This document shows, piece by piece, positions 12,822-30,205 of a DNA stretch of 48,111 bases. Position 1 is the first letter of the stretch; each line of letters starts with the position of its first letter. The notes under the pieces were generated by a model, which did no database searches, was not told where the DNA came from, and saw only the letters and a program-made list of their open reading frames with translations. This DNA comes from a virus. Both the position numbers and the translations under genes were made by a program. The stretch covers positions 1-48,111 of the IMG/VR virus record IMGVR_UViG_3300030616_000004; one strand, given 5' to 3'.

Positions 12822-13229
12822 TTAAGCCTCCTTTAAGTCCTTTAATTTTTGATGCTTTGTGGCGGGGTTTGCCATTTTGTCTATCATGTGGATAACAGGT
12901 ATTCCGAAAGAGCCTGTACTTCTGTATTTGGCCAATGGTCCAATGGCTAGGTTTTCGTATGGTCTGATTCTTTTGGTGCTGATGATGGAGAATTCTCCAA
13001 GAAGTTTTGTGTAGAATACTGGAGACCTGGGACATTTTTCGTTCATGCAGCAGTAGAAGACTGCTTGACTTCTCTTTATGGGATCGATGCAAATTTCAGT
13101 TATAATCTGATCGAATGTTTTTCTTATAGAGAGGAGGTAGTCTTGTAATTCAAAGTAAGTGAAGGTCTTCACTGAATAGATTTTTTTCCCACAGAGTGGG
13201 CATATGTTATTATCGCCTGAGCATGTCAT
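12822..13229 (-). CDS. Zinc-ribbon protein
   Basis: This is a 135-aa protein. Two cysteine pairs, CPLC near residue 10 and CCMNEKC near residue 60, frame a probable zinc ribbon split by a helical insert. The segment CPRSPVFYTKLLGEF is strikingly like CPESPNFFKYLMGE in the small protein at 15743-15979, so the two are related. GGAGG lies about ten bases before the ATG, and the start overlaps the upstream YopX-type gene by 20 bases. Function is unknown. Confidence 0.6.
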   Translation of the reverse strand: MTCSGDNNICPLCGKKIYSVKTFTYFELQDYLLSIRKTFDQIITEICIDPIKRSQAVFYCCMNEKCPRSPVFYTKLLGEFSIISTKRIRPYENLAIGPLAKYRSTGSFGIPVIHMIDKMANPATKHQKLKDLKEA

Positions 13230-13701
13230 CTTGTGGTTCCTCCCATTGATCTAGTAATTTATTGCAATGTTCGCAGAATATTGTGTAAAGGATAGTTCTG
13301 GTTGATTCGTATGTCTTTCGTTTGGTGTATGTTTCTGCCCCGCAAAAAGGGCAATGTTTTGTTTTTGGTTTAATGGAAATATTATTTTCTTTGGTTTCTG
13401 TTTTTTTGTTTTCCTCTAATAACTCCGGGTTTTCGTGAATGTTGCCGATTACCTTTGGGAAATTTTCAAACAAGTCCCAATACAGCGAGTCGTAATCGGT
13501 CTGAAACATAGCGTCATCAAAATACACAGTCCTTGAAGTCTCTCCGTCTGAAACTATATCCCCCTCATAAATCTCAACACCATTCTTATCCTTCAGGCCG
13601 GTGTATTGCTGCCATTCAATTCCATGGTTAAGTTCAATTACATCAGGATAAACAAAATGCCTGTTGTTTCCATCCCAAACCCTAAATTTAATTTCCCTCA
13701 T
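13210..13701 (-). CDS. YopX-family protein fused to zinc ribbon
   Basis: This is a 163-aa protein. Residues 1-95 are a YopX-type domain: MREIKFRVWDG, then QQYTGLKDKNGVEIYEGDIV and VIGNIHENPELLEENK. After a Lys/Thr-rich linker, residues 115-150 carry CPFC and CEHC pairs of a zinc ribbon. YopX proteins are common in Gram-positive and other phages, with no settled function. The gene overlaps the next YopX copy upstream by four bases (ATGA). It is the only one of the YopX copies here with the extra zinc domain. Confidence 0.75.
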   Translation of the reverse strand: MREIKFRVWDGNNRHFVYPDVIELNHGIEWQQYTGLKDKNGVEIYEGDIVSDGETSRTVYFDDAMFQTDYDSLYWDLFENFPKVIGNIHENPELLEENKKTETKENNISIKPKTKHCPFCGAETYTKRKTYESTRTILYTIFCEHCNKLLDQWEEPQDDMLRR

Positions 13702-14102
13702 TTTTTCTCCTCCAATAATTCTGGATTCTCGTGAATGTTGCCGATGATTTCAATGGAAACTCGCTGTCCATCAGATGTTGCTTCCCATAATGTTTCGGCG
13801 AATGATCCCCAGTTCATATAAAATGCGCCGCCATCAAACTTCACCTGCGAAACACAAACCAATCCGGTGCTGTGATCCTTGTTCTTGACAACATCTCCCT
13901 CATAAATATCAACACCATTCTTGTCCCTCAGTCCTGTGTATTGTTCGAGGACAACACCCCCCATGACGTGCCCGTCTTCAGTGGCCCCAATCAACGCCCC
14001 ATCCTTCCCGTGTGACCACGACACGACATACCCATCGGACAAAAGGTCTATTTCGTGGTGATATTTCTCGCCATCCCAAACCCTAAACTTAATCTCTTTC
14101 AT
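13698..14102 (-). CDS. YopX-family protein
   Basis: This is a 134-aa protein with a complete YopX pattern: MKEIKFRVWDGEKYH, then LEQYTGLRDKNGVDIYEGD and IEIIGNIHENPELLEEKK. The ribosome site GAGGTG lies just before the ATG. It shares its N- and C-terminal blocks with the neighbour at 13210-13701 and its first ten residues with the fragment at 14517-14621, so the family has been duplicated locally. Confidence 0.8.
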   Translation of the reverse strand: MKEIKFRVWDGEKYHHEIDLLSDGYVVSWSHGKDGALIGATEDGHVMGGVVLEQYTGLRDKNGVDIYEGDVVKNKDHSTGLVCVSQVKFDGGAFYMNWGSFAETLWEATSDGQRVSIEIIGNIHENPELLEEKK

Positions 14103-25774: not shown

Positions 25775-26296
25775 TTAGTTTTTCGGTTCGAGGAATTTTG
25801 ATGTTATGACTTGATATGTTTCGGTTCCGTGTTCGTCACAAAGTTCTTTTGTTTGTTTTATCATTTTTAAAAGACTTTCGTCTACTTTTCTTTTGTTATT
25901 TTCGTCATAAAAAATAATATTCTTTTTGATTTGATCTTCAGTATATCCGAATCTGAGAGCAAGTCCCAACAGCATTCCAAGTGTGGTCAATGGTTGTAGT
26001 GATTTCCCGACTAGGCTTAATGCGGCGAATGCCACTATAGCATCAGAGGGGTCTTTCAGAATAGAAAGGAAGCCTTGCATTTCTTTTACAATCATTTCTT
26101 TTATATTGGCTTCATTGAATTCTTTCATGTTGTTTTCTGTTCTGTTTTCTATAGTTGAAGTTGCTACTACATCTTTGACTCCATTCATGCAGGCAAGCCT
26201 TTTTTTGTCTTCAAGCGGTACGCAAAAATAATACGCAGCTACAAAAGTAGTGTAGTCTTCAGGGTTAAGCAAAAGCTGAGATAGTTTGTTTTGCAT
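25775..26296 (-). CDS. Early protein, tandem paralog 2
   Basis: This 173-aa protein is mainly helical. It aligns with the next upstream gene product: MQNKLSQLLLNPEDYTTFVA at the start, LGLALRFGYTEDQIKKN in the middle, and KELCDEHGTETYQVITSKFL at the end correspond to MINKLSNVIEDPEN, LGNKVGYDIDEIMKA and KKLINQYGKNAYHLQTQIF. AGGAG precedes the ATG. Function is unknown. Duplication in place and full divergence of the middle suggest a binding protein that has been tuned to different partners. Confidence 0.6.
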   Translation of the reverse strand: MQNKLSQLLLNPEDYTTFVAAYYFCVPLEDKKRLACMNGVKDVVATSTIENRTENNMKEFNEANIKEMIVKEMQGFLSILKDPSDAIVAFAALSLVGKSLQPLTTLGMLLGLALRFGYTEDQIKKNIIFYDENNKRKVDESLLKMIKQTKELCDEHGTETYQVITSKFLEPKN

Positions 26297-26304
26297 AGTT
26301 TCTC

Positions 26305-26871
26305 CTAGTTGATTGTTTCTTTTGGATTTGATTCTGCAGAAGTGATAAACTTTTCCGCAGCAAATATTTGAGTCTGTAAATGATATGCATTCTTACCATA
26401 TTGGTTGATAAGTTTCTTGAGTCTTTGAATGCCATCGTAAACAGGACATGACTTTTTATCGAAAGGTGGGTTGCCGGGCAATGTATTGTTGAAAGCTTTC
26501 ATGATTTCATCAATGTCATAGCCGACTTTGTTTCCAAGTGAAACTACTTGTGCGAGTTCTACGATTGCTTGAAAGACCCTTCTCTTTTGAATTAGAAAGT
26601 CCAGGGTTGCAATAAAATAATTTTTGCCTAGATGTCTGTGGCAAAGTAGGAGAAATTCTACTGTTGCTTTCTGGCAAAGTTCCAGGGGGTTAAGTGGGTC
26701 AAGGTATTCTTCGTTTTCCTTGGGGTCATCTTTCTTTTTGAACAATCGATTGATTGCTTCGTGTACCGCCGCAGTTTGTTTTTCATTAAGTGTAAGCTGA
26801 TAGAAGAATGAAGCGAAGAAAACAAAAATGTTTTCAGGGTCTTCAATGACGTTACTCAATTTGTTGATCAT
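26305..26871 (-). CDS. Early protein, tandem paralog 1
   Basis: This 188-aa helical protein is the tandem paralog of the 173-aa protein downstream (shared MxNKLS start, LGxxxGY and the YxxxTxxF end). A charged insert (KKKDDPKENEEYLDPLNP) is specific to this copy. AAGGAGAAACGA stands before the ATG, and a strong GC-rich hairpin (26891-26933) lies just upstream. No catalytic motif was found. Confidence 0.6.
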   Translation of the reverse strand: MINKLSNVIEDPENIFVFFASFFYQLTLNEKQTAAVHEAINRLFKKKDDPKENEEYLDPLNPLELCQKATVEFLLLCHRHLGKNYFIATLDFLIQKRRVFQAIVELAQVVSLGNKVGYDIDEIMKAFNNTLPGNPPFDKKSCPVYDGIQRLKKLINQYGKNAYHLQTQIFAAEKFITSAESNPKETIN

Positions 26872-26890: not shown

Positions 26891-26933
26891 GGGGAGCGGA
26901 TGAGCCATGTTGCGAGTACTCATCCGACTCCCC
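26891..26933 (-). other. Strong intergenic hairpin after 143-aa gene
   Basis: GGGGAG(C)GGATGAG pairs with CTCATCC(GA)CTCCCC, a stem of about 14 bp with a one-base bulge and a 14-base loop. No T run follows on the minus strand; the ribosome site of the next gene follows instead. It is better read as an mRNA-stabilising or processing hairpin than as a terminator. A hairpin of similar strength lies downstream of the paralogous gene at 29112-29147. Confidence 0.7.
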
Positions 26934-26955: not shown

Positions 26956-27387
26956 CTAGATGGAATCCATCCGCACCGGCTGGTAATCGCCCTCATTGTC
27001 CTTGGTAAGGACCGGTTTCAGGCGAGCGGCGTTCAGTACGGCCAGGGCGTTGCCAACCTTCAAGGCAACCGTCTGTTGTTCGGTGTATGCCTTGATGTAG
27101 GCTTCCTTGGTCTTGGCATCCGTCTTTGCCAAAGCACCTTCGGAAATGCGAGGACGCATCTTCGAGACCGAGGCAACAAGGCCGTTGTCACGGAAACTCC
27201 GTTGGAAGCGGGTGAAAATACGTTCGGGTTGGGAAGGTCCCCGTACCGAATCGTACATTTCATGGGCGGTGCGATAGTCTTCCATCGACACAACTGCTTT
27301 GAGCCAGGAGTCGGCCAGCTTGTTCCGTTTGAGAATGAGTTCCGTGGCTTCCTTTACCGCTTTCGTGATTTTTTCGTTGACTGACAT
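26956..27387 (-). CDS. Early protein, FRDNGL family, paralog 2
   Basis: This 143-aa protein is helical and basic. It aligns with the 161-aa product at 29165-29650: LADSWLKAV with LVESWIDQV, SFRDNGLVASVSKMRPRI with AFRDKGLTASIVKVEPAI, and ARLKPVL with DRIRPKL. The DNA is visibly more GC-rich than its neighbours. AAGGAG before the ATG is directly abutted by a 28-base hairpin whose structure is shared with the paralog's leader. An open frame on the opposite strand over the same DNA has no such support. An RNA- or DNA-binding regulator acting on its own leader is one hypothesis; no known family was recognised. Confidence 0.7.
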   Translation of the reverse strand: MSVNEKITKAVKEATELILKRNKLADSWLKAVVSMEDYRTAHEMYDSVRGPSQPERIFTRFQRSFRDNGLVASVSKMRPRISEGALAKTDAKTKEAYIKAYTEQQTVALKVGNALAVLNAARLKPVLTKDNEGDYQPVRMDSI

Positions 27388-27399
27388 TGCAATCTCCTT

Positions 27400-27427
27400 G
27401 TCCGTCTAGGTTTTCCTAGAATCGAAC
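27400..27427 (-). promoter_or_regulatory. Covarying leader hairpin before 143-aa gene
   Basis: On the minus strand the outer stem is GTTCG/CGGAC, then a two-base bulge AT on the 5' side, inner stem TCTAGG/CCTAGA, loop AAAA. The last paired base adjoins AAGGAG, so the hairpin touches the Shine-Dalgarno sequence. The leader of the paralogous gene (29664-29691) has the same length and layout with different paired bases. Confidence 0.75.
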
Positions 27428-27432
27428 GAATG

Positions 27433-27798
27433 CTATTTAATCCCCCGTCCGGGGGCAGTCTGTCTCCAACCAACGGGATTGAACCGAGAGAATACTTCCT
27501 CTTCAGTTAAACGATCTTCTGTCTCTCCGTTGATGAATTCTTCTTCCCTCATTTTTTGTTCCAGCCTGCTGTCTCTGGTTTCAAGAGAGTTTATTGATTG
27601 CTGCCTGATTGTGTCATCTGCTTCTTTGCAAGCAGTATCCATGACTTGCGGTGCAAGAAGTTTTTCTCTCTCTGTGAGCAAGAGTTTTTCAGTATAGCCT
27701 TGCCGAGTGGAGATGATGATATGATTCTTCAGTTTGCGGACTAAATTCTTTTTGATCTGTTCGTTTGCTCTTTCTTCCAATTCTTTCATGAAATCCAT
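27433..27798 (-). CDS. Charged helical early protein
   Basis: This 121-aa protein is not recognised. It is nearly all charged helix (MKELEERANEQIKKNLVRKL, then SLETRDSRLEQKMREEEFI), and the C-terminus is FNPVGWRQTAPGRGIK. The ATG has TAAGGAG upstream. It lies between the repeated double-hairpin element and the 143-aa gene. No cysteine motif or membrane helix was found. Confidence 0.6.
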   Translation of the reverse strand: MDFMKELEERANEQIKKNLVRKLKNHIIISTRQGYTEKLLLTEREKLLAPQVMDTACKEADDTIRQQSINSLETRDSRLEQKMREEEFINGETEDRLTEEEVFSRFNPVGWRQTAPGRGIK

Positions 27799-27820
27799 TT
27801 TTCGTTCTCCTTAGTTGAAT

Positions 27821-27876
27821 TTAAGCCGAGCCAAAGGCGAGGCTTTCACCCCCCCCCCGGAGGGGGAAGGGCTTAA
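27821..27876. repeat. Double-hairpin element, copy 1
   Basis: TTAAGCC/GGCTTAA encloses two smaller hairpins: one built on GCCGAGCC and GGCGAGGC around AAA, and one on a run of C, GGA, then a run of G. The same pair in the same order occurs at 28731-28772. It fills the gap between the 69-aa and 121-aa genes. Strand of action is unknown. Confidence 0.65.
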
Positions 27877-27881
27877 GAGTA

Positions 27882-28091
27882 TCAAGTAAAGCGTGAACGA
27901 CATTCTTTAAGTCGAATCCATCTTTCTTTCTTGTAGCTGTAGCTTGCTTTGGGATTCAGTCTGAAAATAAGGCAGTAGTATTCTCCGGGTAACATATGAG
28001 ACTCAATAAGAAATGGACAAGAATAATTGTCATTCGCACAATATCTTCCGGTAGGACAAGCAAAACTGATAATTTGTTTTTTTGTTTTCAT
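27882..28091 (-). CDS. Small cysteine-rich protein, paralog 2
   Basis: This 69-aa protein starts MKTKKQIISFACPTGRYCAN with further cysteines in YSCPF, YYCLIF and KECRSR, a likely zinc site. It is a paralog of the 77-aa protein at 14618-14851, which has the same MKTKK...PTGxYC start. A GGAG site lies upstream of the ATG. Function is unknown. Confidence 0.65.
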   Translation of the reverse strand: MKTKKQIISFACPTGRYCANDNYSCPFLIESHMLPGEYYCLIFRLNPKASYSYKKERWIRLKECRSRFT

Positions 28092-28316
28092 TTAAAAGTC
28101 TCCGTCAGGTGGATTAAATGGTTCACCATACTCATTCAAACCGTCTTCATGGAATCCTTGGTAAACCATTAAAAGATGCTTTGGAATCTCACAATAATAA
28201 CCTTCATCGGTCTCTTCAAAACAAATACAACACGTTTCCTTTTTTCTATCTGAAATCCGATGAACCCATTGGAGATGAACATAATTAGTAGCACAGTCTA
28301 AACATACTGGTCTCAT
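28092..28316 (-). CDS. Small zinc-finger-like protein
   Basis: This 74-aa protein has CLDC near the N-terminus and CCICFEE near residue 30, and YYC follows, which would bind zinc. The acidic C-terminus (DGLNEYGEPFNPPDGDF) is disordered. The ATG overlaps the stop of the SLOG-type gene (ATGA), so the two are coupled. Function is unknown. Confidence 0.6.
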   Translation of the reverse strand: MRPVCLDCATNYVHLQWVHRISDRKKETCCICFEETDEGYYCEIPKHLLMVYQGFHEDGLNEYGEPFNPPDGDF

Positions 28317-28693
28317 TTTTTCTCCTTTTCGTTACACCAATAATTCAATCCAGTCGATGCGTTGTATACAAAAACAGGCTTGTTAAGCTTGGTCATGGTT
28401 CGTATCATGTGGGCTGTGCCTGCTGATATACCATCCCATATGGCAATTCCAATTTCAGCTTCTTGAGCCATTCTTTCGTTGCGCCTGAACCCTGCAGACC
28501 GCCCGTATGTTCCCCATTGCGCCGGCATCCGTACTACTGGCAATGTTTCTCCAAGTATCTTTCCAGCTATGCGGTCAACACCACGTGCATCACCGTGAAT
28601 CAACTTAGTAATGCTGACATCAGCCAATTCCAAAGCTTCTTCAATTACCTTAAAATCAGTAATACCACGTGACCCAAATACTACTGTAACCAT
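28313..28693 (-). CDS. SLOG-superfamily (DUF2493-like) protein
   Basis: This is a 126-aa protein. The start at 28693 has AAGGAGAAG upstream. The Rossmann-like pattern MVTVVFGSRGITD, HGDARGVDRIAG, then RSAGFRRNERM and IAIWDGISAGTAHMI matches the DUF2493/YspA-type SLOG family, which binds nucleotide-derived ligands. The family includes phage and prophage proteins and defence-related nucleotide sensors. A role in host nucleotide signalling or anti-defence is possible here but is not shown. Confidence 0.75.
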   Translation of the reverse strand: MVTVVFGSRGITDFKVIEEALELADVSITKLIHGDARGVDRIAGKILGETLPVVRMPAQWGTYGRSAGFRRNERMAQEAEIGIAIWDGISAGTAHMIRTMTKLNKPVFVYNASTGLNYWCNEKEKK

Positions 28694-28715
28694 TCTTCTT
28701 CTCCTTATTCGTTCT

Positions 28716-28731
28716 CCCAAGTGTTCTTGGG
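28716..28731 (-). promoter_or_regulatory. Leader hairpin before SLOG-type gene
   Basis: CCCAAG/CTTGGG with loop AACA on the minus strand lies 13 bases before AAGGAG. The A-rich tetraloop (AACA) resembles the AAAA and AAGA loops of the two paralog leaders. The outer part is weaker (CTC/GAG), so the relation is less certain. Confidence 0.45.
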
Positions 28732-28772
28732 GCCGAGCCTAAGCGAGGCCCGCACCCAACCCCGGAGGGGTT
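28731..28772. repeat. Double-hairpin element, copy 2
   Basis: A first hairpin with GGCC ends and internal GAG/CGA (28731-28750) is followed by AACCCC-GGA-GGGGTT (28758-28772), a perfect 6-bp stem with a three-base loop. Order and core sequences match 27821-27876. A shortened core, GCCAAAGGCGA, also appears at 29726-29736. Confidence 0.65.
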
Positions 28773-28885
28773 AAAATACATATATATAAGTATTAAATCA
28801 ATCTCTGTAGATAGTAAACAATACCCAATATCTGAGAGTCAAAAGGTATGAGTAAAGCAAGTCCATAGAGTATTACTTAAGATTT

Positions 28886-29049
28886 AAGCGTAGCTTTAGT
28901 ACCATTACGTAGGCTTGTCATGGCGTTATTCCGTAGGATAATAGGTGGGTACCACCGTAACGTGAGTACTGGCCGTAGGCCTAATTTTTAAGTACCTAGT
29001 AATGCCGTAGGCATCGTCAGAAAATTTTTGGCGTATGCCACCGTAACGG
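28886..29049. repeat. Array of small GTA-loop hairpins
   Basis: Short inverted repeats around a GTA loop: AAGC-GTA-GCTT (28886-28896), TCC-GTA-GGA (28930-28938), GGTGG-GTA-CCACC (28944-28956), GGCC-GTA-GGCC (28971-28981), ATGCC-GTA-GGCAT (29002-29014). Then TGGC-GTAT-GCCA (29029-29040) and CCG-TAA-CGG (29041-29049). A direct repeat, CCACCGTAACG, occurs at 28952-28962 and 29038-29048. The loops stay the same while the stems change. Confidence 0.7.
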
Positions 29050-29111
29050 GTGAACTTGGTACGCCATGTAATTTAGTGTATCTGGGTGTAACGATATATG
29101 AAAGTATAGAC

Positions 29112-29147
29112 GGGTGGGGATCACGGATTTACCGTGACCCCTCACCC
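29112..29147 (-). other. Strong hairpin after 161-aa gene
   Basis: GGGTGGGG(A)TCACGG pairs with CCGTGACCCC(T)CACCC around ATTTA, about 14 bp. It stands 17 bases past the stop of the 161-aa gene on the minus strand. The sequence that follows (GTCTATACTTTC) is only weakly T-rich, so termination would be partial at best. Confidence 0.65.
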
Positions 29148-29164
29148 TTGGTCTGGGGTAGGTT

Positions 29165-29650
29165 TTAAATTTCTTCGATGACTTGAATCCAAGTCACCAG
29201 AGAATACTTATCGCCTACCCTTTGAAGCTTTGGGCGGATTCTGTCCGCAGAAAAATAGAGCAGGCATAACGCTGCCATCTCTATTAATTCTTCATACACT
29301 TTCCGCACTCGACGGTAATGCTTGACACCTTCCGTTTCGCACTTCGAGAGTGTTTCTTCCGGGATTGCCGGTTCCACCTTTACAATAGAGGCAGTCAGCC
29401 CCTTATCCCGGAAAGCGTGATAGAAACGACTCTGATACTTGGAAATGTCCGAGGGCAAGCGGAGAGATTTTGCGTCATAAAAATCTCGAAGCTCATGGAG
29501 CCGGGGCTTTACCTGGTCAATCCATGATTCCACTAAGTCGCATCGATGCTGTAAAAAGTGCGTGTGTCTTTCCAGCATATCAATGCGACGCCGGAGCCTT
29601 CTTTCTTCTTCCGTCACTTGGACGTTCTTACGTTTCTTTTCCTGAGTCAT
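29165..29650 (-). CDS. Early protein, FRDKGL family, paralog 1
   Basis: This 161-aa protein is the first gene of the minus-strand operon. The N-terminal 40 residues are very basic (KKRKNVQVTEEERRLRRRID), suited to nucleic-acid binding; the rest is helical and holds AFRDKGLTASIVKVEPAIPE, shared with the 143-aa paralog at 26956-27387. GAGGAG before the ATG is abutted by the 28-base covarying hairpin. Being first in the early operon, it is a good candidate regulator or host-takeover protein. No family was recognised. Confidence 0.7.
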   Translation of the reverse strand: MTQEKKRKNVQVTEEERRLRRRIDMLERHTHFLQHRCDLVESWIDQVKPRLHELRDFYDAKSLRLPSDISKYQSRFYHAFRDKGLTASIVKVEPAIPEETLSKCETEGVKHYRRVRKVYEELIEMAALCLLYFSADRIRPKLQRVGDKYSLVTWIQVIEEI

Positions 29651-29663
29651 CTCGACTCTCCTC

Positions 29664-29691
29664 GGCCGTCCGGGTCTTCCCGGAGTCGGCC
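29664..29691 (-). promoter_or_regulatory. Covarying leader hairpin before 161-aa gene
   Basis: Outer stem GGCCG/CGGCC, two-base 5' bulge AC, inner stem TCCGGG/CCCGGA, loop AAGA; 28 bases in all, ending two bases before AGGAG. Every stem difference from the copy at 27400-27427 keeps a pair, either Watson-Crick or G-U. Confidence 0.75.
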
Positions 29692-29733: not shown

Positions 29734-29926
29734 CGAAAACCCTGTGATATCGCGGGTTTCGAGTGTTAAGACCCTAAATTATAGGGTAAAAAGTGACATT
29801 ATTTGACACCACAAAATCAGCTGAAATCCCGGAAATGCAGTGATAGTGCGGCTTTCGGGGTTGACAATCTTTTCCGGGCCAATGGCGGGGATTGTCAAAA
29901 TCGGCCTGAATCCTTCGCTTTCAGCG
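29734..29926. promoter_or_regulatory. Cluster of inverted repeats
   Basis: Five inverted repeats in succession: GAAAACCC/GGGTTTC (29735-29760), ACCCTA/TAGGGT with loop AATTA (29771-29787), CCCGGAAA/TTTCGGGG (29828-29860), TTGACAAT/ATTGTCAA (29861-29898, with GCC-AAT-GGC at its centre) and CGCT/AGCG (29916-29926). No gene lies here. Operators or an origin structure are possible. Confidence 0.55.
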
Positions 29927-30051: not shown

Positions 30052-30205
30052 TATCGTTTGCGCTTAGAGCTATATTTCAATCTATCGTTTGCAGATGGAA
30101 CGACAAATTAAATAGTTATTCCGTAACGTTATAATGAAACGACAAATTAAATGGTTATTCTATAACGTTTATTCAGTGAACGACATTATGTAATTGCGTT
30201 TCGAG
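30052..30205. promoter_or_regulatory. Iteron-like repeat cluster, possible origin
   Basis: AACGACAAATTAAAT starts at 30099 and 30138, and a partial copy (AACGACATTATG) at 30179, about 40 bases apart. In the first two it is followed by GTTATTC and TAACGTT, which form a short palindrome. TATCGTTTGC occurs at 30052 and 30083, and its flanks resemble the reverse complement of the iteron. The stretch is AT-rich and non-coding, as expected for an origin or a multi-site operator. Confidence 0.55.

Follow-up and report, generated by a model that had tools for sequence, protein, structure and literature searches.

Two paralogous genes of an uncultured tailed dsDNA phage each start just downstream of a small bulged RNA hairpin of the same layout, which raises the question of whether these hairpins are translational operators. 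The virus record is 48,111 bases long; this whole stretch is called the window here. Its plus strand carries the terminase, portal, and capsid genes, and its minus strand carries an early-type block with SSB, Erf, primase, and helicase. Heading this block are the genes for P0002, a basic protein of 161 aa (29165 to 29650, minus strand; GC 47%, GC3 51%), and, 1.8 kb further on, for P0001, a basic protein of 143 aa (26956 to 27387, minus strand; GC 54%, GC3 65%). We call both genes early, which we infer from their position heading this replication and recombination block.

Two hairpins of one layout before paralogous genes

Both hairpins were read directly, folded, and their pairs counted. Hairpin 1, 5′ of the P0001 gene (27400 to 27427, minus strand), has a 5-bp stem, a 5′ bulge AU, a 6-bp stem, and an AAAA loop; read from 27427 to 27400, its segments are GTTCG AT TCTAGG AAAA CCTAGA CGGAC. 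The Shine-Dalgarno sequence AAGGAG follows directly (27394 to 27399, minus strand), and the ATG is at 27387. Hairpin 2, 5′ of the P0002 gene (29664 to 29691, minus strand), repeats this layout with AC as the bulge and AAGA as the loop (GGCCG AC TCCGGG AAGA CCCGGA CGGCC from 29691 to 29664), followed directly by GAGGAG (29658 to 29663, minus strand) and the ATG at 29650. The reading and the folding thus agreed with the preliminary description, which had reported two 28-nt minus-strand hairpins of identical length and layout with GGAG at once or within a few bases; GGAG starts 2 nt past the end of the hairpin at both loci. It had also stated that pairing is kept at every position despite the differing stems, and indeed 11 of 11 pairs formed in both hairpins, one of them (U3-G26 of hairpin 1) being a wobble.

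The minimum free energies were −10.8 kcal/mol for hairpin 1 and −19.3 kcal/mol for hairpin 2, with folding z-scores of −4.2 and −4.5, respectively, and none of 200 shuffles folded equally well. When 60-nt leaders were compared among genes, that of P0001 had the lowest folding z-score. The P0002 leader also folded strongly, but its z-score in this comparison was only −1.8, probably due to its high GC content. An Rfam scan of the window gave no match above the gathering threshold of any family.

In the predicted folds, the Shine-Dalgarno sequences lie outside the hairpins and are mostly unpaired. This is also what would be seen under the main rival explanation, a passive 5′-protecting hairpin that keeps the Shine-Dalgarno sequence single-stranded, shields the 5′ side of the mRNA from nucleases, and raises expression without a specific ligand. 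Stable hairpins of different sequence in the leaders of other early genes (27799 to 27881 and 28694 to 28772; also 26891 to 26933) fit such a role as well, and a candidate promoter found by eye, TTGGCA-15-TATAGT (29730 to 29704), would start the mRNA about 6 nt ahead of hairpin 2. However, the spacing of this candidate is short and the promoter scan did not report it, hairpin 1 is intercistronic rather than at an mRNA 5′ end, and the loop, the bulge bases, and the stem length are conserved beyond the needs of a clamp. We consider a purely passive hairpin possible, if rather unlikely.

The two downstream proteins had been described as related and basic, and this was borne out: they are true paralogs (28% protein identity, E = 1e-13) with pI values of 9.7 and 9.3. 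Conserved basic residues are found in an R-F-x3-FRD-x-GL-x-AS-x2-K segment of their alignment, and P0002 has an arginine-rich N terminus that is absent from P0001. Searches of Pfam, PHROGs, NCBIfam, and PDB sequences gave no match better than chance for either protein, and family and sequence-profile searches recognised no RNA-binding domain in them. AlphaFold models (mean pLDDT 70 for P0001 and 66 for P0002) were mostly helical; a structure search with the models gave no viral matches, and the P0001 model had no PDB match at E ≤ 0.001. No homolog was found in IMG/VR with P0001, P0002, the full alignment, or a C-terminal sub-alignment, in the genome contigs of 85,000 prokaryotes with both alignments as query, or among phages and plasmids by tblastn with both proteins. 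The GC3 of P0001 (65%) is the highest among the listed genes and that of P0002 (51%) is among the highest, which suggests acquisition from a GC-richer source. Directly after P0001, two further minus-strand genes (25775 to 26296 and 26305 to 26871), with no family known, have mutually related N termini (30% over 40 aa, E 4e-5).

Evidence for selection on the RNA structure

The two hairpins are identical at 19 of 28 positions, and the nine differences comprise one bulge base, one loop base, and seven stem bases. The seven stem changes are accounted for by three pairs with compensating changes on both sides and by a C-G pair that became U-G, and no pair is broken. In random-substitution trials, nine changes left all 11 pairs intact with P of about 6e-4, and seven stem substitutions fell on both sides of three pairs with P of about 0.015. 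Leader identity (68%) exceeds that of the codon-aligned coding DNA (43%; P about 0.006 at the coding rate), and identity drops to background (16/60) in the 60 bases just 5′ of the hairpin. Among the unpaired bases, A6 and A14, A15, and A17 are kept. Given that no pairs are broken, that random substitution rarely achieves this, and that the leader is better conserved than the coding DNA, the RNA structure is likely to be under selection, as judged from the comparison of two certain copies, both in one genome. The fold, the pair counts, and the substitution test together support the view that a conserved RNA structure sits at the ribosome site, where an operator would be. The hypothesis put forward in the preliminary description, a new family of autoregulatory RNA-binding proteins, is supported only in part, as far as this structure and its placement go. 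Since the stem stabilities differ widely, what is conserved seems to be the shape and the loop and not the energy; the difference of 8.5 kcal/mol is an argument, though not a decisive one, against a simple thermometer or clamp.

This architecture is not in itself rare. About 3 occurrences are expected per 48-kb window (both strands, G-U allowed), and the 6 observed include hairpin 2 as read from the opposite strand. The non-chance signal therefore lies in the matched spacing before the Shine-Dalgarno sequences of both paralogs and in the compensatory changes, not in the architecture itself. From a base rate of about 3e-5 per position, we infer that the chance of the only paralog of P0001 having the same structure and spacing, with a few bases' slack allowed, is below 1e-3. 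The frequency of the bare architecture, and the fact that both genes are GC3 outliers, as imported genes may be, could be taken to mean that the hairpins have no function and are chance structures or remnants of a recently acquired GC-rich cassette. Against this stand the matching positions in the two paralogs and the substitutions that compensate each other at a protein identity of 31%, and we regard it as very improbable.

To look for relatives of the hairpins, IMG/VR was searched with patterns of 16 and 18 fixed bases. This gave 58 and 6 stretches, none with all 11 pairs and none before a start; they are chance or conserved coding matches and double as a negative control. No relatives of the hairpin were found in IMG/VR, the 85,000 prokaryote genomes, phages, or plasmids. 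Related phages were also sought through the terminase, without result, and through the capsid, which brought up a single 7.9-kb fragment; its capsid protein is identical, and nothing in it matches P0001 or P0002.

A possible operator-like mode of action and its parallels

We tentatively favour reading the hairpins as a translational-operator-like, cis-acting RNA element recognised by a trans-acting factor, which we hold to be plausible, if still short of probable. Such an element would have been inherited from the common ancestor of the P0001 and P0002 genes, or copied between them. It lies on the side of the start site where the ribosome docks and would work in the way of a phage translational operator. 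Recognition would be of the A-rich tetraloop, G(AANA)C, and perhaps of the CGAY bulge region; once bound beside the Shine-Dalgarno sequence, the factor would block or modulate 30S loading. On this reading, the element would act as RNA, a protein would bind it, and translation would be what it controls. P0001 or P0002 could be the putative ligand; just as open is a protein of the phage or the host that would control the YspA leader (described below) too. Characterised structured translational operators are few in tailed dsDNA phages, T4 gene 32 and gene 43 being the classic cases. Two certain copies in a single orphan genome make a promising lead, not an established system, and a compact hairpin common to paralogous orphan genes makes a directly testable candidate; if a protein binds it, the two would form a new MS2-type pair of RNA and protein that could find use as a tool.

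The preliminary description had likened the hairpins to classic operators, those of the MS2 coat protein and of the T4 RegA type, and only the former comparison proved apt. The MS2 operator, too, is a hairpin that is short and bulged and lies at the start site of a phage gene; it includes the Shine-Dalgarno sequence, its bulge is a single A two pairs down from the loop, and a pyrimidine is preferred at loop base 3. Its minimal loop is GGAUCACC (PDB 1ZDJ; PMC10610835), and it includes the start codon (PMC10610835). This minimal operator (PMC10610835) and the present hairpins have the loop frame GGANNACC in common, and the closing frame GG-A-N-N-A-CC appears as GGAUCACC in MS2 and as GGAAAACC and GGAAGACC here. 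In contrast to MS2, the start codon and the Shine-Dalgarno sequence are outside the present hairpins, the bulge is of 2 nt and lies six pairs below the loop, and loop position 3 is a purine (A or G), so that the A-N-N-A frame is present but A-N-Y-A is not. The present phage is, moreover, a tailed dsDNA phage with no coat-type regulator known. The hairpins are therefore not members of the MS2 operator type, although by analogy they may work like one. T4 RegA, which represses the translation of several early genes, was ruled out as a comparison, since its targets are unstructured, A+U-rich starts without secondary structure (PMC3014915). By analogy, the T4/RB69 gp43 operator is a functional parallel: its hairpin precedes the ribosome site in an early phage gene, and recognition is loop-specific (PMC3014915). 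It differs in that the repressed gene is the DNA polymerase, the hairpin is of 16 to 18 nt with a UAAC-type loop, and there is no known relation to P0001 or P0002.

A further parallel, the boxB hairpin of the lambda nut site, bears on whether the element acts at the level of transcription, as a nut/boxB-like antitermination site, an attenuator, or a palindromic DNA operator. Like boxB, the present hairpins are short, lie in an early region, and have A-rich loops (AAAA and AAGA, which recall the lambda boxB pair), and the P0002 N terminus makes for an arginine-rich early protein. However, there is no boxA within 80 nt (best 5 to 6 of 9 bases), and the tetraloop is closed by a G-C pair, so that no GNRA-like pentaloop is formed. 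Neither hairpin has a U-run or was called as a terminator, the 2-nt asymmetric bulge disrupts dyad symmetry in the DNA, and the placement is tied to the Shine-Dalgarno sequence. Altogether, a transcription-level element appears improbable.

A candidate third hairpin and the surrounding structured leaders

A covariance model of the two hairpins gave, after the hairpins themselves, one notable match in the window, in the leader of a gene for a YspA/cpYpsA-related SLOG protein (28313 to 28693, minus strand; PF10686 at E 4e-6, just under the curated cutoff, and phrog_289 at E 5e-27). This third-best match, CCCAAG-AACA-CUUGGG (28716 to 28731, minus strand), scored 16.8 bits (E 0.049), compared with 50 to 52 bits for hairpins 1 and 2. 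Its score is inside the range of decoy loci, which reached at most 26 bits and, being chosen by sequence, are a rough control. The candidate has a perfect 6-bp stem and a G-C-closed AACA loop; its outer stem is of only 3 bp (UCG/CGA), with a 2-nt 5′ bulge and a 4-nt 3′ bulge, and the 6-bp stem ends 23 nt before the start, compared with 18 and 19 nt for the other two. A 6-bp G(AANA)C stem was found in 0 of 55 other leaders, and shuffling gave at least one such stem across these 55 leaders in 2.9% of cases (0.9% without G-U), a chance figure of 1 to 3% that is modest for a motif defined after the fact. A fourth such hairpin, with a G(AAGA)C loop (27272 to 27287, minus strand), is inside the P0001 coding sequence and may be due to chance. 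Covariation in the set of four sequences is not independent evidence, as rows 3 and 4 were picked by requiring pairing.

A real YspA copy would extend control beyond the paralogs. It would point away from strict autoregulation and towards joint control of several early genes, which the phage would then coordinate post-transcriptionally. As the YspA/SLOG gene is unrelated to the paralogs, a third hairpin before it would be accounted for by a shared regulon, or by a generic element of leaders, no less well than by autoregulation. The more specific idea of an early-gene regulon, in which a phage protein, perhaps P0001 or P0002, binds G(AANA)C hairpins at P0001, P0002, and YspA and thereby times their translation, seems to us doubtful. 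If true, it would mean a new RNA-binding protein family and an MS2-like operator that evolved independently.

Longer bulged hairpins were also found after the stop codons of both paralogs. The one after P0001 (26891 to 26933, minus strand) has 6 bp, a 1-nt 5′ bulge, 9 bp, and no U-run, and the one after P0002 (29112 to 29147, minus strand) has 5 bp, a 1-nt 5′ bulge, 10 bp, and no clear U-run. Each cistron thus lies between a bulged hairpin before its Shine-Dalgarno sequence and a longer one after its stop, as would be expected if an endoribonuclease cut bracketing hairpins to release stable individual mRNAs in the manner of the T7 early region. However, RNase III substrates span about two helical turns, for which stems of 11 bp are short, and the two 3′ hairpins are alike in layout, not in sequence. 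We therefore judge such processing unlikely.

Structure in the leaders is usual in this minus-strand block, and this favours modest readings, mRNA protection or processing among them. A second homologous pair of such leaders (about 27799 to 27881 and 28694 to 28772, minus strand) precedes the gene for a 121-aa protein and the YspA/SLOG gene. These leaders have a 39-nt repeat in common (72% identity), although the genes themselves are unrelated. The repeat comprises a UCCG-loop stem and a GCCTCG-GGCTCGG stem (GCCTCG..GGCTCGGC), with paired changes.

Other repeats were observed nearby. Within the noncoding stretch 28694 to 29164, an array of eight TACG words (28885 to 29050, minus strand) raises the density of this word, taken across the 471 intergenic nucleotides, to 17 per kb, compared with 1.4 per kb in the window. 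Several of the words are in short inverted repeats (GATGCCTACGGCATT, GGCCTACGGCC, ATCCTACGGAAT, and AAGCTACGCTT), and the array holds two copies of CGTTACGGTGG; it could be an origin, a protein-binding array, or an RNA with UNCG hairpins. In a 1-kb divergent control region, the features noted at 29734 to 29761 and 30095 to 30169 are two 36-nt direct repeats, 89% identical and spaced by 39 nt, with inverted repeats near them, and also CGAAACCCGCGATATCACAGGGTTTTCG, a near-perfect palindrome resembling a repressor operator. Elsewhere in the window, two overlapping genes (13210 to 13701 and 13698 to 14102, minus strand) are tandem paralogs of phrog_98 with 40% identity.
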